DNA of 64,000 bases from Comamonas resistens. Its GTDB lineage: Bacteria; Pseudomonadota; Gammaproteobacteria; Burkholderiales; Burkholderiaceae_C. Both the position numbers and the translations under genes were made by a program. This document shows positions 9,136-41,921 of this stretch, one piece after another (position 1 is the stretch's first letter; the number at the start of each line of letters is the position of its first letter). Under the pieces are notes generated by a model. It was given only the letters and a program-made list of their open reading frames with translations, was not told where the DNA came from and did not search any database. The DNA is taken from the NCBI RefSeq assembly GCF_030064165.1, contig NZ_CP125947.1, positions 434,001 to 498,000 of the forward strand, written 5' to 3'.

Positions 9136-9216
9136 AACAGCTGCGCTGTTTCCTCCTCTCTCGCTTCGCGGGAGGAGGACGATGCCATCGCTGCGAGGCG
9201 GCTCTTGCTTGGCATC
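9136..9216 (+). repeat. Structured 3'-end repeat, copy A (paaD/paaE)
   Basis: Begins 18 bp after the paaD stop. Predicted stems: AACAGC/GCTGTT (9136-9141, 9145-9150), TCCTCCTC/GAGGAGGA (9151-9158, 9172-9179), and GATGCC/GGCATC (9181-9186, 9211-9216) enclosing GCTGC/GCGGC (9190-9194, 9198-9202). Compared with copies B, C and D, the stem sequences differ but pairing is kept. It lies inside the paa operon. Confidence 0.75.
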
Positions 9217-9299
9217 TCTGAGAGACGCTGTGAGCGCTTGTGGTGTGCAGCGAGTCTTGTTGCCGCCAGCAAGAAATCAATTCCGATAGAGGCATCCTG

Positions 9300-10373
9300 A
9301 TGAGTACCTTGTTCTATCCTCTGACGGTACGTTCCGTGCAGCCCGATACGGCAGAGGCTGCCATCGTGAACTTGGAGGTGCCGGACAATCTGCGGGAGCA
9401 GTTTGCCTTCACCCAGGGCCAGTACCTGACCTTGCGCGCCGAGGTCGACGGGCAGGACCTGCGCCGCAGCTATTCCATCTGCTCAGGGGTGGATGACGGG
9501 CAGTTGCGCGTGGGGGTACGCCGTGTGGACGGCGGGGCCTTTTCCAACTGGGTGCACGCCCAGCTCAAGGCCGGTGATCAGATCCAGGTCATGCCACCGC
9601 AGGGACGCTTCTTCATTCCTGTCGAACCCGCGGCGCAGCGCCAGTATCTGGCGATTGCGGGCGGCAGCGGTATCACGCCGATTCTGTCCATCATCAAGAC
9701 CGTGCTGGCGCGTGAGCCGGGCAGCTGCGTGACGCTGCTTTATGGCAATCGCAGCCTGCAGTCCACCATGTTCAAGGAGGAATTGGACGACCTCAAGAAC
9801 CGCTATCTGACGCGGCTGGTGTTGCACCATGTGTTTTCACGCGAGGAGACGGAAGCCCCGCTCAATATGGGCCGCATGAACCAGGCCAAGGTGACGCAGC
9901 TGCTTCAGACCGTGGCGCCCGTGCAGGCGCTGGATGCCGTGTTTGTCTGCGGCCCCTATCAGATGAACGACGAGGCGGAGGCTGCGCTGCTGGCCGCAGG
10001 GGTTCCGCAGGAGCGCATTCACATCGAGCGTTTCGGCATTCTGCCCTCCACGGGCGGGGGGGCGCCTGCCCGTCATGTGCAGGAGGTTCAGGCCGCGCAG
10101 ATCACCTTGATACGTGACGGATTGACGCGCAGCTTCCCCTTCAAGTCTGCACACGGGAATCTGCTGCAGGCCGCGGAGGCGGCTGGCCTGGAAGTGCCGT
10201 ACTCCTGCACCTCGGGCGTCTGCGGCACCTGCCGCGCCAAATGCCTGGAAGGCGAGGTGGCGATGGAGCGCAACTTTGCACTCAGTGCACAGGAGGTCGC
10301 CCAGGGCTTTGTGCTGACCTGTCAGTGCCATCCGCTCAGCAGCAATGTGGTGCTATCGTTTGATGAGCGTTAA
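9300..10373 (+). CDS. paaE: Phenylacetyl-CoA epoxidase reductase PaaE
   Basis: NADPH-dependent oxidoreductase that passes electrons to the PaaAC di-iron centre. The 357-residue protein has an FNR-type FAD domain (RRSYSICS), an NAD(P)-binding segment (AIAGGSGITPILSIIK) and a C-terminal plant-type 2Fe-2S ferredoxin domain with CTSGVCGTC and a later CQC. I chose ATG 9300; an earlier in-frame start would read back into repeat-derived sequence. It is separated from paaD by 182 bp containing repeat copy A, unlike the tight spacing elsewhere in the operon. Confidence 0.94.
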   Translation: MSTLFYPLTVRSVQPDTAEAAIVNLEVPDNLREQFAFTQGQYLTLRAEVDGQDLRRSYSICSGVDDGQLRVGVRRVDGGAFSNWVHAQLKAGDQIQVMPPQGRFFIPVEPAAQRQYLAIAGGSGITPILSIIKTVLAREPGSCVTLLYGNRSLQSTMFKEELDDLKNRYLTRLVLHHVFSREETEAPLNMGRMNQAKVTQLLQTVAPVQALDAVFVCGPYQMNDEAEAALLAAGVPQERIHIERFGILPSTGGGAPARHVQEVQAAQITLIRDGLTRSFPFKSAHGNLLQAAEAAGLEVPYSCTSGVCGTCRAKCLEGEVAMERNFALSAQEVAQGFVLTCQCHPLSSNVVLSFDER

Positions 10374-10431
10374 CCACAGAATGTATCAATGAAAGAGCTG
10401 GAAATTTTGAAAAATCACCTGGAGAGGACCT

Positions 10432-11067
10432 ATGGCTAGAGGTCGTGCAGCAGGTTATGACGATCAGCGTGATCTCATTCTTCAGCATGCGGCCGCGCTG
10501 TTTGCGCGCCAGGGCTACGCCGCGACCAGCATGAACGAGGTGGCTCAGGCCTGCGGATTGTCCAAGCCGGCCATCTATCACTACTTCACCGAGAAATACG
10601 CGCTGCTGTTCGAGATCTGCGACACGCATCTGACCCGGCTGCAGGCTTTGGAGCAGGAAGTCAAGGACTTGCCGGGGCTTGATGCGCAGCAGCGCCTGCG
10701 CAGCCTGATTGCGCGTTTCGTCGAGGAATATGCCTTGTCTGCGCATGCGCATCGCGTGCTGACGGAAAGCGTGCGCTATCTCAAGGGTGAGGATCACCAG
10801 CAGGTGCTGGACAAGGAGCGCGCACTGGTTGCGGGCTTCAGCAAAACGCTGGCACAGATACGTCTGGATCTGGATGAGGCAGGGCTTTCCAAGGCCATCA
10901 GCATGCTGCTTTTTGGCATGATGAATTGGATGTTTACCTGGCTGCGCTCCGATGGCGCGCTGGATCAGGAAGCGATGGCGCAATTGGTGGCGGATTTGTT
11001 CATGGGAGGAATCGGGGAGGTACAAACCCCGACTCCCAAGGCCGAAAAAACACTGGCACAAATATAG
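10432..11067 (+). CDS. paaR: TetR-family regulator, probable PaaR
   Basis: Likely phenylacetyl-CoA-responsive repressor of this operon. The 211-residue protein has an N-terminal TetR helix-turn-helix (about residues 16-62, with FARQGYAATSMNEVAQACG and KPAIYHYF) and a helical ligand-binding domain. It is encoded inside the operon, 58 bp after paaE, with a GGAGAGGACC ribosome-binding site. A matching operator dyad lies at the operon promoter (3781-3794). Effector identity is inferred from the betaproteobacterial PaaR family. Confidence 0.8.
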   Translation: MARGRAAGYDDQRDLILQHAAALFARQGYAATSMNEVAQACGLSKPAIYHYFTEKYALLFEICDTHLTRLQALEQEVKDLPGLDAQQRLRSLIARFVEEYALSAHAHRVLTESVRYLKGEDHQQVLDKERALVAGFSKTLAQIRLDLDEAGLSKAISMLLFGMMNWMFTWLRSDGALDQEAMAQLVADLFMGGIGEVQTPTPKAEKTLAQI

Positions 11068-11201
11068 TTACCAAGATAAATTGTGCGCGCCAAGGAATCG
11101 AAAATGCATTGAAAAAAAGAGCGGTCGTCCATTGGGAAGCAGGCCGCCATTCAGTGATGTGGCAGCTGGATTTTTGTGTGAACCACTTCTAGGAGACAAA
11201 C

Positions 11202-12350
11202 ATGAAGCGCATTGCAAAGTTGGGCCTGGTCGCCGCCGCACTGGCCGCAGTCTGGGGAACGGCTCTGGCCGACATCACGGTGGGGGTGGTGGTGTCCGCC
11301 ACGGGGCCTGCTGCCTCGCTGGGCATTCCCGAAAAGAACACGGTGGCCCTGATGCCCCAGACCATGGGTGGCCAGAAGGTCAACTATGTGATTCTGGACG
11401 ACGCCTCGGACACCACGGCCGCCGTCTCCAACACCCGCAAGCTCGTCAGCGAAAACAAGGCCGACATCATCATCGGCTCCAGCACCACGCCCAACTCGCT
11501 GGCCATGATCGATGTGGTCTCCGAGAGCAAGACGCCCATGATCACGCTGGGCGCCTCGGCGCGCATCATCGAGCCCATGGATGACAAGAAGAAGTGGGTC
11601 TTCAAGGTGCCTCAGAACGACAGCATGATGGCTGGTGCCATTGCCGATCACATGGCCAAGAGCGGCGTCAAGACCGTGGGTTTCATCGGCTTCAACGATG
11701 CCTATGGCGAAGGCTGGCTGCAGGAGTTCAAGAAAGCCGCGGAAGCCAAGGGCATCAAGATGGTGGCGACAGAGGCGTTCTCGCGTACCGATACCTCGGT
11801 GACAGGCCAGGCGCTGAAGATCATGGGCGCCAAGCCCGATGCGGTGCTGGTGGCTGGCTCGGGTACTCCCGCAGCGCTGCCTGAGAAGACGCTCAAGGAG
11901 CGCGGCTACAAAGGCAAGTACTACCAGACGCACGGCGTGGCCAATGCCGACTTCCTGCGCGTGGGAGGCAAGGATGTGGAAGGCACGCTGCTGCCGGCCG
12001 GTCCCGTGCTGGTGGCCCATCAGCTGCCGGATTCGCATCCCGTGAAAAAGACGGCCATGGCCTATGTGGACGGTTATGAGGCCAAGTTCGGCAAGGGCAG
12101 TGCCGCGACCTTTGGCGGTCACTCCTGGGATGCGGGCAAGGTGCTGGAGGCTGCCGTGCCTGTGGCTCTGAAGAAGGCGCAGCCAGGCACGCCCGAGTTC
12201 CGCGCCGCCCTGCGCGATGCGCTGGAGCAGACCAAGGGCGTGGCGGGCGCGCATGGCGTGTTCACCATGTCGCCCACGGACCACCTGGGCATCCAGAACG
12301 GCGTGGTCATGGTCAAGATTGAAAACGGTACCTGGAAGTACCAGCCCTAA
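11202..12350 (+). CDS. Branched-chain-type ABC transporter substrate-binding protein
   Basis: Periplasmic binding protein of the LivJ/type I family, 382 residues, with a clear signal peptide (cleavage after about residue 23, ALA|DITVG). The mature part shows the family features SATGPAASLGIPEKNT, DDASDTTAAV and GFIGFNDAYGEGW. It follows paaR by 134 bp and heads a transporter gene set in the same direction. The context suggests uptake of phenylacetate or a related aromatic acid; the substrate cannot be read from the sequence. Confidence 0.85.
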   Translation: MKRIAKLGLVAAALAAVWGTALADITVGVVVSATGPAASLGIPEKNTVALMPQTMGGQKVNYVILDDASDTTAAVSNTRKLVSENKADIIIGSSTTPNSLAMIDVVSESKTPMITLGASARIIEPMDDKKKWVFKVPQNDSMMAGAIADHMAKSGVKTVGFIGFNDAYGEGWLQEFKKAAEAKGIKMVATEAFSRTDTSVTGQALKIMGAKPDAVLVAGSGTPAALPEKTLKERGYKGKYYQTHGVANADFLRVGGKDVEGTLLPAGPVLVAHQLPDSHPVKKTAMAYVDGYEAKFGKGSAATFGGHSWDAGKVLEAAVPVALKKAQPGTPEFRAALRDALEQTKGVAGAHGVFTMSPTDHLGIQNGVVMVKIENGTWKYQP

Positions 12351-12441
12351 GCCCGTTACGCCCATGACACTTCATCCTGCCTGAAGCCAGTGCGCTTGCG
12401 GGTTGGATGGGGTGCGGGCGGCTTCAGCGAAAGTTTCCATC

Positions 12442-13470
12442 ATGGATTTGCAGATTGCCTTGCTGCTTGGGCAGGATGGCATTGTCAACGGCGCCATCTA
12501 TGGGCTGTTGGCGGTGGCCCTGGTGCTCGTCTTTTCCGTTACCCGGGTCATCTTCATACCGCAGGGTGAGTTCGTTTCCTTTGGGGCGTTGACCCTGGCC
12601 ATGATGCAGGCCAAGCATTTGCCGTCCACGCTGTGGCTGCTGCTGGTGCTGGCAGCCATTGTTCTGGTGATCGACATCTTGCGCTCATTGACGGGGCGGG
12701 AGGTCAGCTGGCCCGCTTCGCTGTTCTGGACGGTGCTCGCTCCAGGCCTGGCCTTTTTGCTGGCTTATGTGCTGCGGCCGTCTTCGCTGATGCTGCAGGC
12801 CGTCACCACCCTGGCCATCATCACTCCCATGGGGCCGCTGATGTACCGCCTCGTGTATCGCCCGCTGGCCAATGCCACCGTGCTCAGCCTGCTCATTGTT
12901 TCCGTAGCCATGCATGGCGTTCTGGTGGGGCTGGGACTCTATTTCTTTGGTGCAGAAGGCTCACGCACTCCTGCATTTTCAGAAGCCTCTTTCCAGTTGG
13001 GCGACATCCCGGTTTCAGGTCAGTCGCTGGTCGTCATCGGGGTGACCATTGCGCTGGTGCTGGCGCTGTTCGTGTTCTTTGGCCGCTCCATGGTGGGCAA
13101 GGCTCTGCGCGCCACGGCCATCAACCGCGTGGGCGCACGTTTGATGGGCATCCCTACCGGGCTGGCCGGTGACGTGAGCTTTGCACTGGCGGCGCTGATC
13201 GGCGCCATCTCCGGTTTGCTGATCGCCCCTTTGACGACTGTGTACTACGACACCGGTTTTCTGATCGGTCTCAAAGGCTTTGTGGCCGCCATTGTGGGTG
13301 GACTGGCCAGCTACCCGCTGGCCTTGGCGGGTGCCGTTCTGGTGGGGCTGTTGGAAGCGTTTTCCTCCTTCTGGGCCAGTGCCTACAAGGAGGTTCTGGT
13401 CTTCACCTTGATCATTCCGGTGCTGTGGTGGCGCTCGCGTAACAGCCACCATGTGGAGGAAGAAGAATGA
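12442..13470 (+). CDS. Branched-chain-type ABC transporter permease (LivH-like)
   Basis: Inner-membrane permease of the LIV family, 342 residues, almost wholly hydrophobic with about eight to nine membrane segments. It opens with the LivH-like [19 protein letters not shown] and contains the coupling-helix region [18 protein letters not shown] 12442 matches the family start. Its end overlaps the next gene by 4 bp (ATGA), so the permease genes are translationally coupled. Confidence 0.85.
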
Positions 13471-25410: not shown

Positions 25411-26439
25411 ATGTTCCGACGACCCTTGTTTGCACTGGCCGCCGTTGCCAGCCTGTGCGCCCCTGCGCTGTCCGCCCACGCCGAGGACATCACGCTCTAC
25501 ACCACGCGTGAACCGGCATTGATCCAGCCGCTGCTGTCGGCCTTCACTGCCCAGACCAAGATCGGCGTGAAGACCGTCTTCGTCAAGGATGGTCTGCTGG
25601 AGCGCGTCAAGGCCGAAGGCGAGCGCTCCCCCGCCGATGTGCTGATGACCGTGGATATCGGCAATCTGCTGGATCTGGTCGACGGTGGCGTGACCCAGCC
25701 CGTGAAGTCGGCGGCACTGGAGGCAGCCATTCCCGGCCAGTTGCGCGCGGCAGACAATCAGTGGTTTGCGCTGTCCATGCGCGCCCGTGTGCTGTATGCC
25801 GAAAAGGACATGAAGATCGGCGCCTTCCGCTACGAAGACCTGGCCAAGCCCCAGTTCAAGGGCAAGGTCTGCAGCCGTGCCGGCCAGCACCCCTACAACA
25901 CGGCGCTGATTGCCGCCATGATTGCCCATGAGGGCGAGGCCAAGACCGAGCAGTGGCTCAAGGGCGTGAAGGCCAATCTGGCGCGCAAGGCTACGGGCGG
26001 CGACCGCGATGTGGCACGCGACATTCTGGGCGGCATCTGCGATGTGGGCCTGGCCAACACCTATTACGTGGGCCATATGAAGGCGGCCAAGGAAGGCACG
26101 GACGCACGCAAGTGGGGCGATGCCATCAAGGTCGTCAAGCCCACGTTTGCAGACCCCAAGAGCGGCACGCATGTGAACATCAGCGGTGCTTCGGTAGCCA
26201 AGCATGCGCCTCACCGCGAGCAGGCCGTGAAGCTGCTGGAGTTCCTGGTCTCCGAATCGGCCCAGAACATGTATGCCCAGGCCAACTACGAGCACCCCGT
26301 GCGCAAGGGTGTGGCGCTGGACCCCGTGGTGGCCCAGAGCATTGGCGAGATCAAGATCGACCCGCTGCCGCTGACCGAGATCGCCAAGTACCGCAAGCAG
26401 GCCAGCTTGCTGGTGGACAAGGTGGGGTTTGATAAATAA
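25411..26439 (+). CDS. fbpA: Ferric iron ABC transporter binding protein (FbpA/FutA-like)
   Basis: Periplasmic Fe(III)-binding protein, 342 residues, with a signal peptide (MFRRPLFALAAVASLCAPALSAHA|E). The mature part begins DITLYTTREPALIQP as in the FutA/AfuA group, and has the iron-ligand tyrosine pair region ANTYYVGHM. ATG 25411 is preceded by TGGAGACC; the frame extends upstream without a signal peptide, so that start is rejected. It is followed by repeat copy B and then the permease gene. Confidence 0.88.
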   Translation: MFRRPLFALAAVASLCAPALSAHAEDITLYTTREPALIQPLLSAFTAQTKIGVKTVFVKDGLLERVKAEGERSPADVLMTVDIGNLLDLVDGGVTQPVKSAALEAAIPGQLRAADNQWFALSMRARVLYAEKDMKIGAFRYEDLAKPQFKGKVCSRAGQHPYNTALIAAMIAHEGEAKTEQWLKGVKANLARKATGGDRDVARDILGGICDVGLANTYYVGHMKAAKEGTDARKWGDAIKVVKPTFADPKSGTHVNISGASVAKHAPHREQAVKLLEFLVSESAQNMYAQANYEHPVRKGVALDPVVAQSIGEIKIDPLPLTEIAKYRKQASLLVDKVGFDK

Positions 26440-26441
26440 GT

Positions 26442-26532
26442 AGCCCCCTGAGGCGCTGATGCGCCTTCCCCCTCTCTCGCTTCGCGTGAGGGGGACAACA
26501 CCTTCGCTGCGAGGCGGCTCTTGCTCGGTGTT
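26442..26532 (+). repeat. Structured 3'-end repeat, copy B (fbpA/fbpB)
   Basis: Begins 2 bp after the fbpA stop. Stems: GGCGC/GCGCC (26452-26456, 26461-26465), TCCCCCTC/GAGGGGGA (26467-26474, 26488-26495), and AACACC/GGTGTT (26497-26502, 26527-26532) enclosing GCTGC/GCGGC (26506-26510, 26514-26518). Inside the fbp operon. Confidence 0.8.
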
Positions 26533-26582
26533 CCTTTGATGGAGCATGCCTGTCCAAGGGCCGTTTCCTTTTCGATTTTTTG

Positions 26583-28235
26583 ATGTTTTCTTATCTTCGT
26601 TCCGGGCTGCGGCCCGTCGGGCCGGTGTGGCAGGGCGCAAGCTGGTTGATTGCGCTGGGGGTGTTGGCGCCCATTGCCTCACTGGCCTGGCTGGCGCTGG
26701 GGGCCGATTTTTCGCACTGGCAGGATCTGGTGCGCTATGTGCTGCCCGATGCTGCCGCCAATACGGCCTGGCTGCTGGGCGGGGTGGGCCTGCTGGTGCT
26801 GATTGTCGGCACGGGCTGCGCCTGGCTGGTGACGGCTTATGACTTTCCGGGGCGGCGCTGGCTGCATTGGGCGCTGCTGCTGCCGCTGGCCATGCCGGCC
26901 TATATCGTGGCCTTTGCCTACCTGGATCTGCTGCACCCCATTGGCCCGGTGCAGGGTGCACTGCGCTGGTTGCTGGGCTACGACAGCCCGCGCCAGTGGC
27001 GGCTGCCCGATCTGCGCTCCATGGGCGGTGCGATCTTTGTGCTGGGCTTCACGCTCTACCCCTATGTCTATATGACGGCGCGGGCCATGTTCATGACCCA
27101 GCCTGCGCACTTGATGGAAGCGGCGCGCTCGCTGGGCGAGACGCGCTGGGGTGCTTTTTGCCGAGTGGCCCTGCCCATGGCGCGGCCGGCGCTGGTCGTG
27201 GGCCTGAGCCTGGCCCTGCTCGAAACCCTTAACGACATAGGTGCGTCCGAGTTCCTGGGCGTGCACACGCTCACGGTGTCGATCTACACCACCTGGGTCA
27301 CGCGCTCCGATCTGGCTGGGGCTGCGCAGATCGCCTGCTCCATGCTGCTGGCCGTGGTGGCCCTGGTCTGGCTGGAACGCCAAGGCCGCAGCCGTCAGCG
27401 CTTTGGCTCGGCCCAGCGCATGCGGGCGATAGCATCGCATCGTCTGCCAGCCCGCACGGCCTGGCTGGCCACGCTGTTTTGCAGCGTGCCCGTGCTCATC
27501 GGTTTTGCCGCTCCCGCAGCCTATCTGGCCTGGGAAAGTGCCAAGCGTTTTGCCCATGGCACGGGTATCTCGGCAGGTCTGTGGTCCAGCCTGCTCAATA
27601 CGCTGGGGTTGGCGCTGGGGGTGACCGTGATCGCGGTTGCTGCCGGTCTGGTCGTGGCCTGGGCCACGCGTACCAGTGTCAGCACGCGTGCGCCTTCGCG
27701 CTGGCAGGCGCAACTGGCGGCGCTGGGTTATGCCGTGCCGGGCACGGTGCTGGCCATAGGCTTGCTGACGCCTGCGCTGGCGCTGGATGCCGGGCTGGCC
27801 CGGTTGTTTGGTGCAGAGGGTTTGCCACTGATGGGGCAAGGCGTGGTGCTGGTCGTGGCCTGCGTGATCCGTTTTCTGGTCATGCCCGTGGGCGGTATCG
27901 AGGCGGGGCTGGCCCGCATTCCGCCGACGCTGGAGCAGGCTTCGCGCCTGTTGGGTGAAAGCCGTCTGGGAACCCTGCGCCGCGTGCATCTGCCGCTGCT
28001 GCGCCCTGCCATGGTCACCAGCGCCATGCTGGTGTTTGTCGATGCCATGAAGGAGTTGCCTGCCACCTTGCTGTTGCGCCCGGCCGACTTCGATACCCTG
28101 GCCACCTGGCTCTATGCCGAAGCCGCGCGCGGCACCTATGAAGAAGGCGCGATTGCCGCGCTGTGCATTGTGGTCGCGGGCCTGGTTCCCGTCATGCTGC
28201 TGGCGCGTACCCAGCTTTCAGAGAAAAATAATTAA
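26583..28235 (+). CDS. fbpB: Ferric iron ABC transporter permease (FbpB-like)
   Basis: Inner-membrane permease, 550 residues, made of two fused BPD-type permease halves with about twelve membrane segments in total. Each half has the EAA-loop (EAARSLGETRWGAFCRVALP at about 180 and EQASRLLGESRLGTLRRVHLP-like at about 460). The start is ATG 26583; a TTG codon lies directly before it. It lies 143 bp after fbpA because repeat copy B occupies the gap. Confidence 0.88.
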   Translation: MFSYLRSGLRPVGPVWQGASWLIALGVLAPIASLAWLALGADFSHWQDLVRYVLPDAAANTAWLLGGVGLLVLIVGTGCAWLVTAYDFPGRRWLHWALLLPLAMPAYIVAFAYLDLLHPIGPVQGALRWLLGYDSPRQWRLPDLRSMGGAIFVLGFTLYPYVYMTARAMFMTQPAHLMEAARSLGETRWGAFCRVALPMARPALVVGLSLALLETLNDIGASEFLGVHTLTVSIYTTWVTRSDLAGAAQIACSMLLAVVALVWLERQGRSRQRFGSAQRMRAIASHRLPARTAWLATLFCSVPVLIGFAAPAAYLAWESAKRFAHGTGISAGLWSSLLNTLGLALGVTVIAVAAGLVVAWATRTSVSTRAPSRWQAQLAALGYAVPGTVLAIGLLTPALALDAGLARLFGAEGLPLMGQGVVLVVACVIRFLVMPVGGIEAGLARIPPTLEQASRLLGESRLGTLRRVHLPLLRPAMVTSAMLVFVDAMKELPATLLLRPADFDTLATWLYAEAARGTYEEGAIAALCIVVAGLVPVMLLARTQLSEKNN

Positions 28236-28249
28236 GATGAAATTGGATT

Positions 28250-28290
28250 CAAACGCTTATGGGTATTGCGCCAGAAGCTATTGAATGTGA
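28250..28290. repeat. Dispersed palindromic-family repeat between fbpB and fbpC
   Basis: CAAACGCTTATGGGTATTGC and CCAGAAGCTATTGAATG match the CGCTTATGG...GC-GCT-AGCTAT layout of the copies at 19988 and 51141. It fills the 64-bp gap before fbpC. Confidence 0.5.
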
Positions 28291-28299
28291 AGTGATTGC

Positions 28300-28962
28300 A
28301 TGACTGCCTCTCTACAAATTGCACAGCTGCATCTGGGCTATGAATCGCCTCAGGGCTTTCACACCGTGCTGCAGAGCTTTGACCTGCAAGTGCCTGCCGG
28401 CCATATCGCCAGCCTGCTGGGGCCCTCGGGTTGCGGCAAGACTTCGGTGCTGCGTGCCATCGCAGGCTTTGAGCCCGTGCGCGCGGGCAGCATTCATCTG
28501 GGCAAGGTGCTGCTGTCCGGCCCCGGAACCCATCTGCCGCCCGAGCAGCGCCATGTGGGCATGATGTTCCAGGAGTACGGCCTGTTTCCCCATCTGACTG
28601 CCGCACAGAACGTGGGCTTTGGCCTGCGCCGCATGGGCAAGCCGGAGCGCGACCAACGTGTGCAGGAGTTGCTGGCCGTGGTGGGATTGGCGAATTCAGG
28701 CAGCAAGTTCCCGCATGAGCTGTCCGGCGGTCAGCAGCAGCGCGTGGCTCTGGCGCGGGCCCTGGCGCCGTCCCCGGCCTTGCTGCTGCTGGACGAGCCT
28801 TTTTCCAATCTCGATGCCGCCACGCGCGAGCGCCTGACGCTGGAAGTGCGCGACATTCTGCGTGCGGCTGGCCAGACCGCCATCCTGGTCACGCACAACG
28901 CGCAGGAGGCTGAAACCATGTCCGACCAGATCTGTCAGATGACGCCCATCCAGGGGCTGTAA
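28300..28962 (+). CDS. fbpC: Iron ABC transporter ATPase (FbpC-like, short)
   Basis: Nucleotide-binding subunit, 220 residues, with Walker A GPSGCGKTS, Q-loop MFQEYGLFPHL, signature LSGGQQQRVALARAL, Walker B LLLLDEPFSNLD and switch His in LVTHN. Typical FbpC proteins are about 340-350 residues, so this one lacks the C-terminal regulatory (TOBE-like) domain. The stop TAA is followed at once by a dyad shared with the convergent phzF-like gene, so this is the natural end, not a frameshift that I can see. Confidence 0.82.
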   Translation: MTASLQIAQLHLGYESPQGFHTVLQSFDLQVPAGHIASLLGPSGCGKTSVLRAIAGFEPVRAGSIHLGKVLLSGPGTHLPPEQRHVGMMFQEYGLFPHLTAAQNVGFGLRRMGKPERDQRVQELLAVVGLANSGSKFPHELSGGQQQRVALARALAPSPALLLLDEPFSNLDAATRERLTLEVRDILRAAGQTAILVTHNAQEAETMSDQICQMTPIQGL

Positions 28963-28978
28963 GAGAGAGGCCTTACAG
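28957..28978. terminator. Dyad spanning both convergent stop codons
   Basis: CTGTAAG (28957-28963) and CTTACAG (28972-28978) form a 7-bp stem with an 8-nt loop. It includes the TAA stops of both fbpC and the PhzF-family gene. No T run, so terminator activity is uncertain. Confidence 0.35.
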
Positions 28979-29941
28979 TAGCACGTGGCCGCTGGTCACG
29001 GTGATGGTATGGCCGCCCACCCAGAGCTTGCCGTTGTTGCCGGTCTGCACATGGACCTGCCCGTCGCGGCCCACGCATACCCCCTGGGCTGCGGTATAGG
29101 GCGTTTGCAGCAGGCCCTTGCCCGTCAGCCACTGAGCCAGCGCTGCGTTGAGGCTGCCGGTGACGGGGTCTTCGCTGGCGGTTTCACCGATCAGAGCACG
29201 AACTTCCAGCTGAGGATGGGTAGAGGCGCTCTTGCCCTGCGCTGCTTCCTCGGCTTGCTTGGCAAAGGCGCGCGCCTCGCGGCTGGAGCGGCCTATCAAC
29301 GGAGCATCCTCTTGCTCCTCGTAAATGGCAGCCAGACCGGCCTTGGCGTCCAGCTTTTTGAGCGCGCCAAAGTCCGGCTCCACCGCCAGCACGGTATCGG
29401 GGTGGTCCAGCAGCAGGCCCAGCCAGGCCGAGCCGTTGTAGAGGCGGCGCGCCATCAGCAACTGTTCACGCGCAAGGCCCAGTGCTTGCAGCACGGGGGC
29501 CAGCTCGGCTTCCGGCACCTCCTGGGAGTCCAGGGAGGGGGCTTCAAAAAACAGAGCGCCTTGCGCGCTTGCCGTAATGGGTACCAGCCCTTTTTTGCAT
29601 TCCTGCAGCACTTGATCCGGATTGCGCGGCTGGCCGCCCTGGGCCAGCCAGGCGTGGCAGCTGCCCAGTGTGGGGTGACCGGCAAAAGCCAGCTCGCCCG
29701 CGGGCGTGAAGATGCGCAGCAGATAGTCGGCGCCTGCGGCCAGCCCGTCGGCACTGGGTTGCATCACAAACGTGGTTTCGGACAGATTGGTCCAGCGTGC
29801 AAAAGCCTGCATCTGTGTGTCGCTCAAGCCATCGGCGTTCAGCACCACGGCCACGGGGTTGCCGAGCAGCGCGGTTTGCGTGAACACGTCCACGGTCATA
29901 TAGGGACGGGAGATGGGGCTGGTTGAGACGTTGGCAGACAT
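28973..29941 (-). CDS. PhzF-family epimerase/isomerase
   Basis: A 322-residue protein of the PhzF/diaminopimelate-epimerase fold. Family signatures are visible: FTQTALLGNPVAVVL near the N-terminus, NLSETTFV with the conserved Glu, ELAFAGHPTLGSCH and GETASEDPVTGS. ATG 29941 gives the normal N-terminus. PhzF proteins here are usually of unknown substrate; there are no phenazine genes nearby. It is downstream of the aminotransferase on the same strand, separated by repeat copy C. Confidence 0.85.
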   Translation of the reverse strand: MSANVSTSPISRPYMTVDVFTQTALLGNPVAVVLNADGLSDTQMQAFARWTNLSETTFVMQPSADGLAAGADYLLRIFTPAGELAFAGHPTLGSCHAWLAQGGQPRNPDQVLQECKKGLVPITASAQGALFFEAPSLDSQEVPEAELAPVLQALGLAREQLLMARRLYNGSAWLGLLLDHPDTVLAVEPDFGALKKLDAKAGLAAIYEEQEDAPLIGRSSREARAFAKQAEEAAQGKSASTHPQLEVRALIGETASEDPVTGSLNAALAQWLTGKGLLQTPYTAAQGVCVGRDGQVHVQTGNNGKLWVGGHTITVTSGHVLL

Positions 29942-30019
29942 GGGCAGCGATTGTCGGCAAAAAGAAAAACCGGCGCAGGGCCGGTTGATGAGGCATTGCA
30001 CATGCCATGGGGTATCAGA

Positions 30020-30140
30020 GACGCCGAGCAAGAGCCTAGGCGGCCCCGCCGCCTTGCGGCGATGGCGTCGTCCCCCTCCCGCGAAGCGAGAGAGGGGGAA
30101 GGCGGGGCCGCCTAGGCGCGGAGCGCCTCAGGGGGAGCCT
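30020..30140 (-). repeat. Structured 3'-end repeat, copy C (after aminotransferase), expanded
   Basis: Lies just after the stop of the minus-strand aminotransferase, in that gene's sense. Stems: GGCGC/GCGCC (30115-30119, 30123-30127), TCCCCCTC/GAGGGGGA (30071-30078, 30092-30099), GGCGTC/GACGCC (30064-30069, 30020-30025). In addition, 16-bp perfectly complementary arms, CCTAGGCGGCCCCGCC (30035-30050) and its complement (30101-30116), are inserted into the element. Confidence 0.75.
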
Positions 30141-30145
30141 TCAGA

Positions 30146-31324
30146 TCAGAGGCTGGCCTTGATCGCGTCGGCCAGCGACTTGATGCCGGTGTTGATTTGC
30201 TCGGCGGACACCGTCACATACGACAGGCGCAGCGTGTTGTTTTGTGCATCGCCGGCATAGAAGGGGGCGCCGGGCACAAAGGCCATATTGCGTTCCACGG
30301 CCTTGGCCAGCAGCGCCTGTGCATCCATGCCAGCGGGCAACTTGACCCAGAGGAACATGCCGCCCACGGGGCGTGTCCACTTCACGTCGAGGCCGGCCAT
30401 CTCGCGCTCCAGCGCCATCAGCATCACATCGCGCTGGGCCTTGTACATGGCGCGGATGGTGGGCACATGGCGGTCCAGGAAACCGTCCTTGATGACTTCG
30501 GCCACCACGCGCTGGTTGAAGCTGGGGGTGTGCAGGTCGGCGGCCTGCTTGGCCTGGGTCAGCTTGCCGTAGACGGACTTGGGCGCCACGATGAAGCCGA
30601 TGCGCAGGCCGGGAGCCAGCACCTTGGAGAACGAGCCCATATAGATCACGCCCTCGGGGTTGCGTGCAGCCAGGGGCAGTGGGGGCTCCTGCTCGTACCA
30701 GAGGTCGCCGTAGGGGTTGTCCTCGATCAGGGGGATATCCAGCTCCCTGGCCTTGTCGACCAGAGCCTGGCGGCGTGCATCGCTCATGGTGCGGCCGGTG
30801 GGGTTCTGGAAGTTGGGCAGCACATAGGCCAGACGGGCCTTGTCGGCGCCGGTGCCGACCTGGGCCGCGAAGGCGTCGATCAGCATGCCTTCGTCATCGC
30901 TGTCCACGCCTTCGGCCACGGGTTCCATGGGGGTGAAGGCCTGCAGTGCGCCCAGATAGGTGGGCTTTTCGACCAGGATGCGGCTGCCCTTGTCCAGGAA
31001 GATCTTGCCGATCAGGTCCAGCGCCTGCTGGCTGCCGGTGGTGATCAGAATCTGCTCGGGATCAACGCTCCAGGGCAGGAAGTCGGCAATCGCCTGACGC
31101 AGCGGGGCAAAGCCTTCGGTGGTGGAGTACTGCAGGGCGGCGGCGCCGTCGCGCTGCATCACGGCCTGACAGGCCTCGGTGAATGCATCCAGGGGGAAGG
31201 CCTTGGGGGAGGGCAGGCCGCCAGCCATGCTGATGATGCCGGGGCGGTCGGTCAGCTTGAGGATTTCGCGGATGGCGGAGGAATTCATCTTGGCAGCACG
31301 TTCTGCCAGCGTCCAGGTTGTCAT
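30146..31324 (-). CDS. PLP-dependent aminotransferase (class I, LysN/2-aminoadipate-like)
   Basis: Fold-type I aminotransferase, 392 residues. It has the substrate-loop region ISMAGGLPSPKAFP, the nucleotide-fold GSQQALDLIGKIF, NFQNPTGRTMS and the PLP-lysine motif MGSFSKVLAPGLRIGF. ATG 31324 gives this normal start. It is divergent from a MocR-family regulator across 369 bp, so the regulator probably controls it. Substrate could be 2-aminoadipate, aromatic or branched-chain amino acids; the sequence does not decide. Confidence 0.85.
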   Translation of the reverse strand: MTTWTLAERAAKMNSSAIREILKLTDRPGIISMAGGLPSPKAFPLDAFTEACQAVMQRDGAAALQYSTTEGFAPLRQAIADFLPWSVDPEQILITTGSQQALDLIGKIFLDKGSRILVEKPTYLGALQAFTPMEPVAEGVDSDDEGMLIDAFAAQVGTGADKARLAYVLPNFQNPTGRTMSDARRQALVDKARELDIPLIEDNPYGDLWYEQEPPLPLAARNPEGVIYMGSFSKVLAPGLRIGFIVAPKSVYGKLTQAKQAADLHTPSFNQRVVAEVIKDGFLDRHVPTIRAMYKAQRDVMLMALEREMAGLDVKWTRPVGGMFLWVKLPAGMDAQALLAKAVERNMAFVPGAPFYAGDAQNNTLRLSYVTVSAEQINTGIKSLADAIKASL

Positions 31325-31693
31325 AAAACAGTACTCGATCTCTACGTTGCCAGCCCCGGCGGGACTGGCCAATGTGCGGTCTCACGCCGTTGTCGGGCAT
31401 GTGCTGGCAAAAGCGCGAGCTTTTTGACAGCGCGGGTAGCGCCGCCAGTGTGCACCAGCGGTGGGTTTATTGTGTCGCTGCCTGCTTGCCAATGTGGGCT
31501 GCTGGGCAATTGCGACGATTTGGTCTGCTGCCGGTGGGCGATGAACCGTGGCCCAAGTCCTCAGTAGAGGGCGGCCAAGCGAGGTTGATGGATTCAATAT
31601 ACGCTTGAGACCATTACAGTACCTATACAGACAGGCTCACAATTCTTGCTTCTGTATTGGTGTCCGCTTCAGTACAGTTTTCCGCCCATCACC
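31325..31693. promoter_or_regulatory. Divergent promoter region of aminotransferase and MocR regulator
   Basis: This 369-bp gap has no gene. It contains direct repeats TACAG at 31615-31619 and 31626-31630 (11-bp period, one helical turn) and an inverted pair CTGTA (31652-31656) / TACAG (31673-31677). Clustered TACAG/CTGTA units just upstream of the regulator gene look like MocR operator half-sites. No clear consensus -10/-35 pair was assigned. Confidence 0.45.
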
Positions 31694-37830: not shown

Positions 37831-37857
37831 CTTTCGACAAGAGCGCGCAAAACTTGA
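37831..37857 (-). promoter_or_regulatory. Sigma-28 (FliA) promoter of flgMN
   Basis: On the minus strand, TCAAGTTT (37857-37850), an 11-bp spacer and GTCGAAAG (37838-37831) match the sigma-28 consensus TAAAGTTT-N11-GCCGATAA at 7/8 and 5/8. It would let FliA drive its own antagonist. Confidence 0.6.
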
Positions 37858-37954
37858 GGAATATTTTCGGGGTGTGAGCCGTGTTTCTGTAACCGCTGGT
37901 TAGTGCCAGCATCCAAAGAGGCTTGGGGGCAGAAGAGATGTCGGAACGGCATGT

Positions 37955-38713
37955 TCACTGAACCTGAACCACGCCGCTGGCGTTGACCGTGCCCGTGACA
38001 AGGCGGCCATTATCCATGCGAACGCGCACTTGCTGTCCTTCTCCGGCCGCAGCCATAGCCTTGCCGGAACCCGAAACACTGAAGCCACCGCCATTGACCA
38101 TCACCTGCACGGGCGATCCCGCCGTGAACAATGCCGGCGGGCGCACCATGTTCTGGCGCAGCGCCTGTCCCGATGTCAGCGGGCGGGCCGTCACCATGCC
38201 TATGAAATCCTGGGCATTGGCGAAGACGGCAGCGCTGTCCTCGGCCCAGTCCACTTCCGCAGGGACTGCATCCTCGGCGCTCAGCGTCTTGCCGGCAGGA
38301 ATATTGCCTTGGGCCACCCAGGCAGGGCCGTAGGCGCGCACGGTGATCGGCAGAAACACATTCCAGGGCACGGCCCCTTCCAGGCAGCGCAGGCCCAGGC
38401 GGGTACGTCCCCAAAGCCGGCTTCCTGCCGGAAGATAAGGCTCTACACGGGCACAGGCGGCCAGGCGCAAGCGTGAGTCCAGCTGGCCCATCTGCACTTC
38501 CATGCGCAGCGGCGAGCCGTTGCTGGCCTGGGGGGCATCGGCTGCAGGCTGGTGCAGGGCAGCATCCACAAAGCGCTGGCCGATCTGGCTCAGCTGTGCG
38601 GCGCCATCCTGGGCCTGAGCGCTAGCCCCCGTCAGCACGGCGACCAATCCCCACGCCGCAGCCACGCCCCGCAGAGGGCGGCATGGGTTGGATGGGGGAA
38701 AACGGCCAGACAT
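37955..38713 (-). CDS. flgA: Flagellar P-ring assembly chaperone FlgA
   Basis: Periplasmic chaperone for FlgI P-ring assembly, 252 residues. It has a signal peptide (hydrophobic run VAAAWGLVAVLTGASAQA) and a SAF/ChapFlgA C-terminal domain with VVTARPLTSGQALRQNMVR-like features. It is divergent from flgB and upstream of flgM on the same strand, separated by 171 bp containing the flgM promoter. Confidence 0.9.
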   Translation of the reverse strand: MSGRFPPSNPCRPLRGVAAAWGLVAVLTGASAQAQDGAAQLSQIGQRFVDAALHQPAADAPQASNGSPLRMEVQMGQLDSRLRLAACARVEPYLPAGSRLWGRTRLGLRCLEGAVPWNVFLPITVRAYGPAWVAQGNIPAGKTLSAEDAVPAEVDWAEDSAAVFANAQDFIGMVTARPLTSGQALRQNMVRPPALFTAGSPVQVMVNGGGFSVSGSGKAMAAAGEGQQVRVRMDNGRLVTGTVNASGVVQVQ

Positions 38714-39034
38714 GCATCAATCCTTTATAGGACTTACGCAAACAAGCCGGGCCGCCGATGCGCAGGGCCGCCGATGCGGATGCACAAGGAGCATTCCCAT
38801 AAGGGAAATGTCTTGCTTGAACCTGATTGCGTAAGTCGTGCTTTGCAGTCCACAGAGACAAGTACTGCAGACGATGGCTGCAAATATAGGTGCAGCAGAG
38901 GTGGGGCAATGGTTGGAAGTGCCAGTGCATTACCGCTTTCTTCGCGCTTTAGTTTGGCGAGCCGATTTTCATAATCCTCGCATGCCGCAGTCTGCATGAC
39001 CAGGCAGCAATGAATTCTTGAAAGCGAGGCCGCG
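38714..39034. other. Gene-free divergent region between flgA and flgB
   Basis: This 321-bp region separates flgA from flgBCDEFGHIJKL and must hold their promoters. Its flgA-proximal third is a MITE-like element (38731-38837). The remainder has no ORF of note. I could not assign a clear sigma-70, sigma-54 or sigma-28 promoter for flgB; flgB has GCGAGG as a weak ribosome-binding site. Confidence 0.5.
38731..38837. mobile_element. MITE-like element with 11-bp terminal inverted repeats
   Basis: GACTTACGCAA (38731-38741) and its exact complement TTGCGTAAGTC (38827-38837) bound an 85-bp interior. The interior has a 16-bp near-perfect tandem repeat (38749-38764 and 38765-38780, 15/16 identical). 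No target-site duplication is evident and there is no coding capacity. It could be a miniature inverted-repeat element or an IS remnant. Confidence 0.4.
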
Positions 39035-39448
39035 ATGCTGAACAAAATGACCGAACGACTGGACTTCCAGAGCGAAGCGCTGCTGCTGCGCGCCGAGCGC
39101 CAGCGCGCCATTGCCAGCAATATCGCCAATGCCGACACCCCCGGCTATGTGGCGCGCGACTTCAATTTTCGTGAAGCCCTGATGGCGGCGACCAGCGGCC
39201 CCAAGCCCTTGACTCAGGCCAGCACCACGGCGGCCGGCCATATTCCCTTGCAGGCGCAGATGTCCGATGAGGCGCTCAAGGCCAAGCTCGGCTACTCGGT
39301 CAACTCCCAGCCCAGCCTGGACAGCAACACCGTGGATCTGGACCGTGAGCGCGCCAACTTTGTGGATAACGCCGTGCGCTACGAGGCCACGCTGCGTTTC
39401 ATCAACGGCCAGGTCAAGACCATGCTCAGCGCCATCCAAGGCCAGTAA
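39035..39448 (+). CDS. flgB: Flagellar proximal rod protein FlgB
   Basis: Proximal rod component, 137 residues, with the rod-protein N-terminal motif ASNIANADTPGYVARDFNF (about residues 28-46). First gene of the flgB-L cluster, 16 bp before flgC. Confidence 0.93.
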   Translation: MLNKMTERLDFQSEALLLRAERQRAIASNIANADTPGYVARDFNFREALMAATSGPKPLTQASTTAAGHIPLQAQMSDEALKAKLGYSVNSQPSLDSNTVDLDRERANFVDNAVRYEATLRFINGQVKTMLSAIQGQ

Positions 39449-39464
39449 GCCCAGGAGCTAAACC

Positions 39465-39869
39465 ATGTCCATGTTTTCCATCTTCAATATCTCGGGCAGC
39501 GCAGTCAGCGCCCAGTCGCAGCGCCTGAACGTGGTGGCCTCCAATCTGGCCAACGTCGATGCCGTGGCCGGCCCTGACGGCAGCGTCTACAAGGCACGTC
39601 AGGTCGTATTCCAGACCGTGCCCATGGGCAACGACGGCAGTGCGGGCGTCAAGGTCAATGCCATCAGCGAAGACAACACGCCCGGCCGCCGCATTCACGA
39701 TCCAAGCCACCCGTTGGCCGATGGCGAGGGCTATGTCACCCATTCCAATGTGAGTGCTGTGGACGAGATGGTCAACATGATCTCGGCCTCGCGCTCCTAC
39801 CAGAACAACGTGGAAGTCATGAACACGGCCAAGACGCTGCTGCTCAAGACTTTGCAAATGGGCCAGTAA
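39465..39869 (+). CDS. flgC: Flagellar proximal rod protein FlgC
   Basis: Proximal rod component, 134 residues. N-terminal VVASNLANVDAVAGPDG and C-terminal VDEMVNMISASRSYQNNVEVMN are typical of FlgC. It lies between flgB and flgD with 16-bp gaps. Confidence 0.94.
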   Translation: MSMFSIFNISGSAVSAQSQRLNVVASNLANVDAVAGPDGSVYKARQVVFQTVPMGNDGSAGVKVNAISEDNTPGRRIHDPSHPLADGEGYVTHSNVSAVDEMVNMISASRSYQNNVEVMNTAKTLLLKTLQMGQ

Positions 39870-39885
39870 GCCCGAAAGGCCAGAC

Positions 39886-40554
39886 ATGATTTATGGCACC
39901 GACAGCACGGGCGCGACCGGCACCAATGTTTCCAGCGTCAGCAAAAGCAAGTCCGAGGTCACCAACCCTCAGGAGGCGCAGGATCGTTTTCTGAAATTGC
40001 TGGTTGCGCAGTTGCAGAGCCAGGATCCCATGAACCCCATGGACAACGCGCAGATGACCTCGCAGATGGCGCAGATCAATACCGTGACCGGGATTCAGCA
40101 GCTCAACCAGACCATGCAGAGCATGGCGGGCCAGTTCACGGCCATGCAGGTGCTGCAGGGCACCTCCATGATCGGCCGCACAGTGCTGACTGAAGGCAAC
40201 ACATTGGGCGTTGCCGCAGATGGAACGCATACGGCAGCCTTTGACCTTGAGGGCTCGGCGGCCAGCGTCAAGGTCTCTATTACCACGGCCAGTGGCGAAC
40301 TGGTAGACACCATCGACCTGGGCTCGGGCCAGGAAGGACGCAACTACTTCACCTGGAATCCGGCCGGTAAATACAGTGGCGACGCATCGCAGCTGCGCTA
40401 CACCGTGACGGCTGCCAACGCGGGCGCTGCAGTGGCTGCAACCACGCTGTCGCCGCACGCAGTGATCGCCACAAGCGCCAACAACGGCAACCTGACCCTG
40501 GAGTTGGACAACGGCTCCAGCCTCGCCTACGCCGAAGTCAAGGCTGTTTACTAA
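39886..40554 (+). CDS. flgD: Flagellar hook-capping protein FlgD
   Basis: Scaffold (cap) for hook polymerisation, 222 residues. The N-terminal NPQEAQDRFLKLLVAQLQSQ motif and DPMNPMDNAQMTSQMAQINT are characteristic; the C-terminal half is an immunoglobulin/tudor-like domain. Located directly before flgE. Confidence 0.93.
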   Translation: MIYGTDSTGATGTNVSSVSKSKSEVTNPQEAQDRFLKLLVAQLQSQDPMNPMDNAQMTSQMAQINTVTGIQQLNQTMQSMAGQFTAMQVLQGTSMIGRTVLTEGNTLGVAADGTHTAAFDLEGSAASVKVSITTASGELVDTIDLGSGQEGRNYFTWNPAGKYSGDASQLRYTVTAANAGAAVAATTLSPHAVIATSANNGNLTLELDNGSSLAYAEVKAVY

Positions 40555-40591
40555 TCAGCATTCCGATCGATCTGCTTCACAGGAGCACACC

Positions 40592-41851
40592 ATGAGTTTT
40601 CAACAAGCGCTTTCCGGCCTGAACGCTGCCGCGCGCAATCTGGATGTTATCGGCCACAACATCGCCAACTCGGGCACCACGGGCTTCAAGTCCTCGCGCG
40701 CCGAATTTGCCGAAGCCATGGCCAGCGCCGCAGGCTCGGCCAGTGGCCAGTCCGTGGGCATCGGTGTCAACGTGGCTGCAGTGTCCCAGCAGTTCAAGCA
40801 AGGCGACATCACGGCCACCGGCAACAATCTGGACGTGGCCATCAACGGCAACGGCTTCTTCATGCTGCGCCAGCCCGACGGTACCGAAGCCTATACGCGC
40901 GCCGGCAACTTCAAGCTCGACAAGGATGGCAATCTCAAGACCAACAGCAACGACCAGATACTGGGCTTTCCTGTGGATCTGACCACAGGCAAGGCGCTGA
41001 CTGGCACACAGCCCGTGCCCATGTCCTTCCCCTCGGGGCAGGCTATGCCCGCCAAGAGCACTACCCAGGTTGCGCTGACCATGAATCTGGACGCGCGCGC
41101 CCATAACGCGGCAGGGGACCCTGCCGCAACACCACCAGTGGCAGCCACGCCGCGTGCCACCTACGGCACATCGCTGGAAGTCTTTGACAGCCAGGGCGTG
41201 GCAACGCCGCTGAGTCTGTATTTCGTAAAGACGGCAAACCCCAATGAGTGGGAAATTTACACCACGCTTGACGAAACCGTGCAGGCCCCTGGCTCGCCTG
41301 TGGGCAAGCTGACATTTGACGACGCGGGTAACCCTACGCCACAGCCCTTGCCGCCGCTGGCCATCGTCCTGAATGCAAGCAACAACCCCAACAATCCCAA
41401 TCCGGCGACCATCAACCTGAATGTCGATTTCGCCAAGGTCACGCAGTTCGGCACCAAATTCTCCGTCAATGACATCAAGCAGGACGGTTATACCGCCGGC
41501 ACCATGACGGGCCTGAATATCAGTAAGGATGGCTCCATCGTTGCCACCTACTCAAATGGTGTCAAACGCACCGAAGGCCAGTTATCCCTGGCCAGCTTCA
41601 CCAACCCCCAGGGCCTGGCCTCGGTGGGGGATAACAAATGGGTATCAACCCCCGATTCGGGTGTGGTTGTGGCCGGTCTTGCTCAGACCGGTACGCTGGG
41701 CACGCTGCAATCGGGAGCGCTCGAAGGATCCAATGTGGACCTGACAGCCGAGCTCGTGGACATGATGACTGCCCAGCGTGCCTATCAGTCCAATGCTCAG
41801 GCCATCAAGACGCAGGACCAAGTGTTCTCCACTCTGGTGAATTTGAGGTAA
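40592..41851 (+). CDS. flgE: Flagellar hook protein FlgE
   Basis: Main hook subunit, 419 residues. It shows the N-terminal SFQQALSGLNAAARNLDVIG, the NIANSGTTGFKSSRAEF motif, [10 protein letters not shown] and the C-terminal VDMMTAQRAYQSNAQAIKTQDQ helix. A variable, Pro/Asn-rich central domain (about 170-270) is exposed in the hook. Repeat copy D starts on the base after its stop codon. Confidence 0.95.
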   Translation: MSFQQALSGLNAAARNLDVIGHNIANSGTTGFKSSRAEFAEAMASAAGSASGQSVGIGVNVAAVSQQFKQGDITATGNNLDVAINGNGFFMLRQPDGTEAYTRAGNFKLDKDGNLKTNSNDQILGFPVDLTTGKALTGTQPVPMSFPSGQAMPAKSTTQVALTMNLDARAHNAAGDPAATPPVAATPRATYGTSLEVFDSQGVATPLSLYFVKTANPNEWEIYTTLDETVQAPGSPVGKLTFDDAGNPTPQPLPPLAIVLNASNNPNNPNPATINLNVDFAKVTQFGTKFSVNDIKQDGYTAGTMTGLNISKDGSIVATYSNGVKRTEGQLSLASFTNPQGLASVGDNKWVSTPDSGVVVAGLAQTGTLGTLQSGALEGSNVDLTAELVDMMTAQRAYQSNAQAIKTQDQVFSTLVNLR

Positions 41852-41921
41852 CCCCCTGAGGCGCTTTGCGCCTTCCCCCTGAAAAGGGGATGAAGCCTCG
41901 CTGCGAGGCGGCCCCTGGCTT
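41852..41921 (+). repeat. Structured 3'-end repeat, copy D (flgE/flgF), short form
   Basis: Directly abuts the flgE stop. Stems: GGCGC/GCGCC (41860-41864, 41868-41872), a shortened TCCCC/GGGGA (41874-41878, 41886-41890), and AAGCC/GGCTT (41893-41897, 41917-41921) enclosing GCTGC/GCGGC (41900-41904, 41908-41912). A further GGCGC-A-GCGCC palindrome lies at 41954-41964. Confidence 0.75.

Follow-up and report, generated by a model that had tools for sequence, protein, structure and literature searches.

A dispersed three-hairpin repeat beside stop codons in Comamonas, proposed as a REP-like DNA element of the Comamonadaceae

In the portions of two accounts on which I rely, REPs (GTAG- and CGTC-tagged, and the E. 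coli BIMEs) are described as high-copy intergenic palindromes that lie mostly 3' of genes, close to where the upstream gene ends but with a variable spacing to the following gene, with the stop codon sometimes supplied by the repeat and with subfamilies that carry alternative complementary stems (PMC3733652, PMC8266576). REPs between convergent genes are described there as near both gene ends (PMC3733652), and CGTC REPs as having an unpaired terminal CGTC tag, an 8-9 bp stem and a 4-5 nt loop (PMC8266576, PMC3733652). In Escherichia coli, REPs no further than 15 nt from the stop codon stall ribosomes (Liang, Rudd and Deutscher 2015, as summarised in part of PMC12306157), and according to the same source this position applies to 446 of 4,072 by one count and to 260 of 496 by an older count. 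The repeat described here, found in Comamonas resistens, resembles REPs as portrayed in the consulted part of PMC3733652, in that its copies are numerous, lie between genes and mostly follow a gene end at short distance, but it combines three hairpins that differ from one another and always come in the same asymmetric order, and it is strongly sense-oriented, with convergent copies hugging the sense stop only. The titles and abstract openings of the literature surveyed contain no description of it. I put the probability at roughly 55% that it is a REP-like, non-autonomous dispersed DNA element of the Comamonadaceae, whose hairpins beside stop codons likely tune mRNA decay or termination.

The repeat unit comprises a leader, CCCCCTGAG, three consecutive hairpins (HP1, HP2 and HP3) and a loose, degenerate tail; the core with the three hairpins averages about 88 nt over 150 copies of the own genome, and the full length including the tail is roughly 90-150 nt. 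A covariance model trained on 35 copies recovers all four copies (A to D) originally predicted in the window, the whole 64,000-nt stretch that was analysed, each in the predicted sense, and these are genuine members of a large dispersed repeat family. Copy B (26443..26553, plus strand; 116.4 bits, E 4.5e-29) is near-consensus, with the tail GATGGAGCATGCCTGT, and was a member of the training set, while A, C and D were outside it. On the plus strand, its leader CCCCCTGAG occupies 26444..26452, HP1 (AGGCGC/GCGCCT) 26451..26466, HP2 (TCCCCCTC/GAGGGGGA, with a variable tip) 26467..26495, and HP3 26497..26532, the last built of an outer AACACC/GGTGTT, a middle GC/GC and GAG/CTC around a GCGG loop. 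Copy A (9128..9237, plus strand; 107.8 bits, E 8.6e-27) has the leader CCACCTGAA, HP1 as AACAGC/GCTGTT, HP2 as TCCTCCTC/GAGGAGGA and HP3 as GATGCC/GGCATC, followed by a tail. Copy D (41851..41947, plus strand; 47.0 bits, E 9.6e-11) is short and among the most degenerate, ranking 149th of the 150 scored copies. Copy C (30000..30136, minus strand; 70.4 bits, E 6.4e-17) is longer because of two nested insertions on the scale of 14 nt, both of CTAGGCGGCCCCG, one at the HP3 apex (30036..30048, plus strand, thus in reverse complement on the element strand) and one between HP1 and HP2 (30103..30115, minus strand). A pseudoknot between these two complementary inserts was considered and taken as coincidence, as a scan at no more than two mismatches flagged 27 of 150 rows, some of them by chance, and only copy C for both inserts. 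No Rfam model matches the window at gathering score, and none of the four sub-threshold matches within 26400-30200 falls at copies B or C; membership in Rfam was rejected.

All four copies lie directly after a stop codon and in the sense of the upstream gene, as had been claimed from the sequence, with gaps from the stop to CCCCC of 11, 4, 10 and 0 nt for A, B, C and D, respectively. Gene identities were judged by NCBIfam model matches relative to their cut-offs. Copy A separates paaD (8602..9117, plus strand, TIGR02159 above cut-off) from paaE (9300..10373, plus strand, TIGR02160 above cut-off), and copy D separates flgE (40592..41851, plus strand, NF004238 above cut-off) from flgF (41998..42738, plus strand, NF009280, a subfamily model, above cut-off). 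At copy B, first read as lying between fbpA and fbpB, the upstream gene (25426..26439, plus strand, start codon uncertain) encodes an ABC transporter substrate-binding protein related to phosphonate/thiamine substrate-binding models, none of which is above cut-off, and the downstream ABC permease gene (26580..28235, plus strand, start codon uncertain) likewise has no model above cut-off. Copy C follows a MocR/aminotransferase-like gene (30146..31372, minus strand, no listed model above cut-off) and precedes a PhzF-family gene (28973..29941, minus strand, TIGR00654 above cut-off).

This placement is the rule throughout the genome, where at least 150 copies were found, and it is far from the random orientation and position that would have spoken against the original prediction. 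Sense-wise, 141 of 150 own copies lie 3' of a gene (113 tandem, 28 convergent), as do 72 of 75 copies in named records and 29 of 30 in a genome of another genus (G147). Among the 141 sense copies, 132 are no further than 15 nt from the stop codon, and in 13 the TGA of the leader CCCCCTGAG is the gene's own stop. The convergent copies are nearer to the sense stop in 28 of 28 cases (combined p 6e-17). Sense orientation is not required for the hairpins as such, because both strands fold. For comparison with the stop-proximal REPs of E. coli, the Comamonas repeat has 132 of 150 copies within 15 nt, and in one orientation.

In the genomes sampled, the repeat is confined to its own GTDB family. Matches at E <= 0.001 occur in 62 of 150 genomes of that family, 21 of which carry at least 15 copies, and at E <= 1e-5 in 3 of 274 genomes sampled from the class, all three of the same family; named hosts include Comamonas, Acidovorax and Delftia, and one congener (G128) has 149 copies. 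Whether an orthologous junction carries a copy differs between species. Of 12 paaD/paaE loci read, the own one alone has a copy at the junction, and junction 3 is empty in 19 of 19 readable relatives (20 examined). At the orthologous flgE/flgF junctions, G128, G170 and G151 have a copy in the sense direction, and two antisense copies occur as well. A deletion remnant persists in G167, and the orthologous copies at junction 1 are decaying in G170, G169, G165, G161 and G178; with several orthologous copies in decay, any single copy may be dispensable. In the comparison with G128, 20 of its 30 best-scoring copies (of 149, a choice that favours intact copies) share a junction with an own copy. In these 20 pairs, with the alignment fitted to the model, the 519 comparable pair cells include 70 in which both sides changed and pairing was kept, 8 in which a single side changed and pairing was kept, and 12 that are broken in one of the two. 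The core diverges at 15-16% of sites, compared with 26% at adjoining third codon positions and 36% in the tail.

The eight column pairs with the strongest covariation among the 150 copies all belong to HP1 and HP3, with scores of 87-220 against shuffle maxima of 15-23 (n=6). The covariation in the stems is thus above chance, and stem 1, stem 2 and the closing stem with their compensatory changes are real, as was first read from the four copies. The inner GCTGC/GCGGC stem fares differently; most copies are able to form it (597 Watson-Crick, 95 G-U and 54 mismatched of 746 ungapped cells) but it does not covary, and it was rejected as a covarying stem, the covarying inner pairs being GC/GC and GRG/CYC around the GCGG loop. 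On the mRNA strand, G-U is not preferred to A-C overall: with all helices taken together, the counts are 70 vs 74 in own copies, 20 vs 40 in named records and 1 vs 5 in G128, or 91 vs 119 for the three sets summed, although the own copies do favour G-U in HP1 considered by itself (28 vs 10). In C. testosteroni JL40, the surroundings of two copies are 93% identical, and HP3 differs as a whole compensated module in both. At one of the three near-relative loci (L292), single changes only are seen, without a module swap. The whole-module changes in some orthologues suggest, from their sequences, an exchange between copies at the DNA level. Together with the G-U and A-C counts, such swaps show that covariation between copies of a repeat is not in itself proof of selection on an RNA.

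A possible but unlikely alternative to the REP-like element is a purely selfish repeat without any host benefit, whose distribution would follow from insertion preference and the purging of harmful insertions and whose hairpins would serve mobilisation only. The filled and empty junctions, the decayed orthologous copies, the head-to-tail tandem arrays seen in G147 and the lack of an overall G-U preference in the mRNA sense would all suit it. However, 20 of the 30 best G128 copies sit at common junctions with their stems paired, and convergent copies keep to the sense stop in every case though the whole spacer is free to them.

The original prediction saw selection on RNA structure. On such a view the repeat would be a host-encoded regulatory RNA in the 3'UTR, selected for its fold in the mRNA and either bound by a protein or blocking exonucleases. 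I consider this improbable. Covariation, sense bias, stop adjacency, a core better conserved than the tail and the G-U excess in HP1 of the own copies all agree with it, but G-U does not outnumber A-C overall in any of the three data sets, the compensated changes in JL40 arrive as whole modules, and junction 3 is empty in every readable relative.

MITE-like repeats such as ERIC, NEMIS and RUP are transcribed intergenic repeats of about 100 nt and high copy number, with long inverted repeats, and several of them have terminal inverted repeats and target duplications. The Comamonas repeat is similar in size and copy number, but these last two features are not seen in it: the consensus, on inspection only, has no terminal inverted repeats, and the flank pairs of 93 copies show no more similarity than shuffled pairs (p 0.56), which also disposed of an apparent duplication at one junction, where stop and start overlap. 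No transposase or insertion chemistry was identified for the repeat.

That the repeat forms a classic GTAG REP/REPIN system moved by a RAYT transposase is very improbable, and this reading was rejected. Its niche in the genome would be that of REPs, as far as the part of PMC3733652 used here describes it, and a Y1_Tnp gene is present once in the own genome and at least once in 20 of 21 element-rich genomes; but Y1_Tnp also occurs in 92 of 129 other genomes, and for 11 Y1_Tnp genes (11 genomes) the stretch of about 1.5 kb around the matched domain is free of copies in every case. A GTAG REP is a palindrome of 20-50 nt preceded by GTAG, whereas the Comamonas core spans about 88 nt with three hairpins, and GTAG is found in 3 of 150 own cores, a few flanking nt included, at the 5' foot in 2. 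On the minus strand the consensus does show CGTC at the HP2 foot, but half of this CGTC is paired and the HP2 tips vary in length. REPs frequently form head-to-head or tail-to-tail dimers, none of which were found among the 150 own copies, whose starts are at least 903 nt apart; the arrays in G147 are head-to-tail only.

The least credible explanation is an intrinsic or partial transcription terminator, the latter having been part of the original prediction: TTTT does occur in 54 of 150 tails, but these tails, also rejected as a fourth hairpin, fold like shuffled ones (-4.11 vs -4.06 kcal/mol), the terminator arrangement of a GC hairpin with a U run right behind it was not found in the own copies, a same-strand gene lies downstream of 113 of 150 copies, and a separate terminator-like hairpin follows 12 of the 28 convergent ones.

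Returning to the REP-like element, I infer that the repeat spreads as a mobile element, by a route based on ssDNA or recombination, that its hairpin arms are kept complementary at the DNA level, partly through whole-module exchange between copies, and that copies placed elsewhere are lost through selection. Transcribed with the upstream gene, it would place a stable hairpin typically 8-14 nt past the stop codon, just in front of a ribosome that is terminating and where 3' exonucleases would run into it. An effect on mRNA decay or termination is probable, and would most likely consist of tuning these for the upstream gene and separating it from the next one, as reported for E. coli REPs; the putative role in mRNA 3'-end protection or processing that was first suggested is plausible. 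More speculative, and rather doubtful in its full form, is the proposal that the zone of translation termination itself is the niche of this mobile element. Insertion or retention would then be tied to the few coding-strand nt past the stop, ribosomes would face a hairpin as they terminate on more than 130 genes of a genome, the repeat would set termination, decay and operon uncoupling together, and modules would be swapped by recombination. The family is a large one with tight placement and orientation, it occurs in common environmental and plant-associated genera, and its asymmetric build lets orientation be scored, unlike that of a plain palindrome. Scorable orientation and tight placement therefore make two questions testable, namely genome-wide control of termination by stop-proximal repeat hairpins and the origin of the stop-adjacent placement itself. 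As to other replicons, a phage origin was rejected, with no match among the phage records, and two plasmid records match the repeat.

In a genome of 5.3 Mb, the window lies on the main contig. Judging from the identity to a C. testosteroni locus given below, the genome very probably belongs to a Comamonas close to that species. Copy B as BLAST query gave 40 scored matches among 156 candidates. With a covariance model built from 35 aligned copies (34 fetched stretches plus the window), at least 150 copies are found in the genome, and all 150 scored at E 1.2e-7 or better. The model recovers all four copies of the original prediction, namely A (paaD/paaE, 9128-9237, plus strand), B (between ABC substrate-binding and permease genes, 26443-26553, plus), C (between MocR-like and PhzF-family genes, 30000-30136, minus) and D (flgE/flgF, 41851-41947, plus), although A, C and D had been left out of its construction.

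Read on its own strand, the unit consists of the leader [A/T]CCCCCTGAG, a first hairpin (HP1; GGCGC/GCGCC, plus other versions), a second (HP2; TTCCCCCT.../...AGGGGGA, with a tip of varying length), the letters AC, a third (HP3; six outer pairs, e.g. GACACC/GGTGTC, then GC/GC, then GRG/CYC enclosing a loop of GCGG) and finally a loose tail that ends near GCGCCAGTTTT. Upstream of position -2 the copies show no clear consensus, so the stop codon lies outside the unit. Tandem copies in a genome of another genus (G147) recur with a period of 146-153 nt, and there the tail is therefore part of the unit. RNAalifold detects compensatory change at 11 of 25 pairs in the 35 copies, and in a structure-blind count over 150 copies the top eight column pairs are HP1 and HP3 pairs. 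These score 87-220, whereas the highest values in six shuffles were 15-23; the proposed covariation of stem 1 and the closing stem is borne out. Two further structure pairs score 40 and 24; column pairs that rank next, scoring up to 66, fall inside the first 16 columns, are mostly not structure pairs and are taken as subfamily or alignment effects.

Smaller insertions are nested in the repeat. The genome contains 24 occurrences of the 13-mer CTAGGCGGCCCCG and one of the reversed control; 16 of the 24 are in or at listed repeat copies, at several different unit positions, and within the copies the 13-mer forms insertions on a 14-nt scale. Copy C holds it at 30036-30048 and 30103-30115, and a second insertion type, CTAGCCGGGCGCCCC, is present in HP2 of some copies.

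Genes around all 150 copies were called by codon usage, with the gene caller trained on the window. The sense gene is the upstream neighbour in 141 copies (113 tandem, 28 convergent), and among these the distance from the stop codon to CCCCC ranges from -17 to +40 and is at most 15 nt in 132, in line with the stop-adjacent sense placement first proposed from four copies. Tandem copies lie at a median of 4 nt from the stop versus 72 nt on the opposite side, and in the 28 convergent spacers the stop-side share of free space averages 4% (combined p 6e-17). The TGA of CCCCCTGAG serves as the gene's stop codon in 13 of the 141 sense copies. The nine exceptions comprise five antisense copies in tandem (one within a called frame) and four between diverging genes; in six of the nine, the CCCCC end is 8-53 nt from an opposite-strand gene start. 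In G147, 29 of the 30 copies examined (34 found) are sense, 22 of them at -8 to +11 nt and seven farther away, as later members of tandem arrays. For the named records (80 listed loci of at least 118 found; 86 pattern matches, 11 too close to an edge), 72 of 75 examined copies among the matches listed are sense, with 68 of the 72 within -8 to 20 nt. At orthologous flgE/flgF junctions in two relatives (G183 and G150) the element is antisense, directly before the flgF start; hence the orientation is not absolute. In these antisense copies (L392, about 2018-2122; L398, 1387-1496) the reversed CCCCC (GGGGG) occupies the flgF Shine-Dalgarno position. A subfamily with CCCCCTGAGTCGC (L010 1997-4040 and relatives) has a T-C mismatch in HP1 and, by eye, seems often to lie behind overlapping or near-overlapping stop/start junctions, which suggests a separate lineage.

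If the fold were selected in the mRNA, G-U pairs would be expected to outnumber A-C mismatches. Counted on MAFFT alignments, the 150 own copies have 70 G-U versus 74 A-C (HP1 28 versus 10, HP2 28 versus 42, HP3 14 versus 22), 85 copies of named records, where the search pattern pre-selected an intact leader and HP1, 20 versus 40, and 30 copies of the congener G128 one versus five. These counts do not support selection on RNA structure as originally claimed, even though the compensatory changes are real: a G-U excess is absent overall (91 versus 119, p 0.06, in counts not fully independent through shared ancestry), and HP1 of the own copies alone opposes the other counts. In C. testosteroni JL40, at a locus 92.9% identical to the own stretch over 5.4 kb (L273), the copy orthologous to the own copy at 1360600 has the same HP1, nearly the same HP2 and a different but paired HP3, and the neighbouring copy differs in both HP2 tip and HP3. 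All three hairpins differ at a relative's locus of 89% identity; another, of 93%, shows no swap and differs in its stems at just two single sites. Such swaps fit better with recombination or gene conversion between copies, or with correction templated by the hairpin itself, a known mechanism, than with stepwise compensation in the mRNA.

Besides placement and structure, the comparison of genomes demonstrates presence and absence of the element and the sharing of junctions. Three junctions of one operon are filled in some genus genomes and empty in others (41 genomes). Read letter by letter in 20 relatives, junction 3 is empty in all 19 that were readable, 18 with TGA-x-ATG gene spacing, while at junction 1 the element is intact in some, decayed in others and nearly deleted in G167. 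The paaD/paaE junction of copy A is filled in the own genome only (12 loci read). Among 30 flgE/flgF loci read, four carry a sense copy (the own genome, G128, G151 and, in decayed form, G170), two an antisense copy, and G178, by eye, an HP1 remnant. Of the 149 copies in G128, the 30 that score best were compared, and 20 of these have their junction in common with an own copy, which counts against simple turnover; eight of the other ten have no match in the own stretches compared and two matched far from the copy. The 20 orthologous pairs give 519 comparable pair cells (41 more are gapped), in an alignment fitted to the model and hence leaning towards pairing: no change is seen in 425, both sides changed with pairing kept in 70, one side changed with pairing kept in eight, and the pair is broken in one copy in 12 and absent from both in four. 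The inner stem GCTGC/GCGGC, also predicted to covary, shows no covariation among the 150 own copies. Orthologous stems are nearer to each other than random stems (0.155 versus 0.186, p 0.005), as are tails (p 0.0002); differing sites amount to 15-16% in the core, 26% at adjoining third codon positions and 36% in tails.

Of the 150 genomes sampled from the GTDB family, 62 have a match at E<=0.001; with counting capped at 25 copies per genome, 21 carry at least 15. In the class sample of 274 genomes, searched with stricter filters, E<=1e-5 is reached by three, all of which belong to the own family and one of which is the own genome. Named hosts among the matches listed are Comamonas, Acidovorax, Paracidovorax, Delftia, Simplicispira, Diaphorobacter, Verminephrobacter and Hylemonella, together with several MAGs labelled only Burkholderiales, Burkholderiaceae or Proteobacteria. 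Two plasmid records match, and the phage records searched gave none.

The element may have spread as a mobile element and come under selection after insertion. HP1 starts at a median of 10 nt past the stop (quartiles 8 and 14), where a terminating ribosome would meet it. According to PMC12306157, E. coli REPs at most 15 nt from the stop stall ribosomes, and REPs protect mRNA from exonucleases, raising its stability; PMC3733652 places REPs near the 3' ends of upstream genes, where they sometimes provide stop codons. Because of these reported effects and the expected encounter of HP1 with the ribosome, the repeat would most likely affect decay and termination in the way REPs do. It would work like a REP; however, it lacks the GTAG tag, adjoins none of the transposase genes tested, and is asymmetric and oriented. 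A search of titles and abstract beginnings found no description of it, with subscription journals mostly outside the coverage; a description may therefore already have been published elsewhere. A single RAYT-type Y1_Tnp gene (238 aa; L043 1471-2178) has no repeats beside it. Such genes occur in 112 of the 150 family genomes sampled, mostly one each; the element-rich G015 has 20 matches, several equal in score, a pattern suggestive of recent expansion of an IS200-type element.
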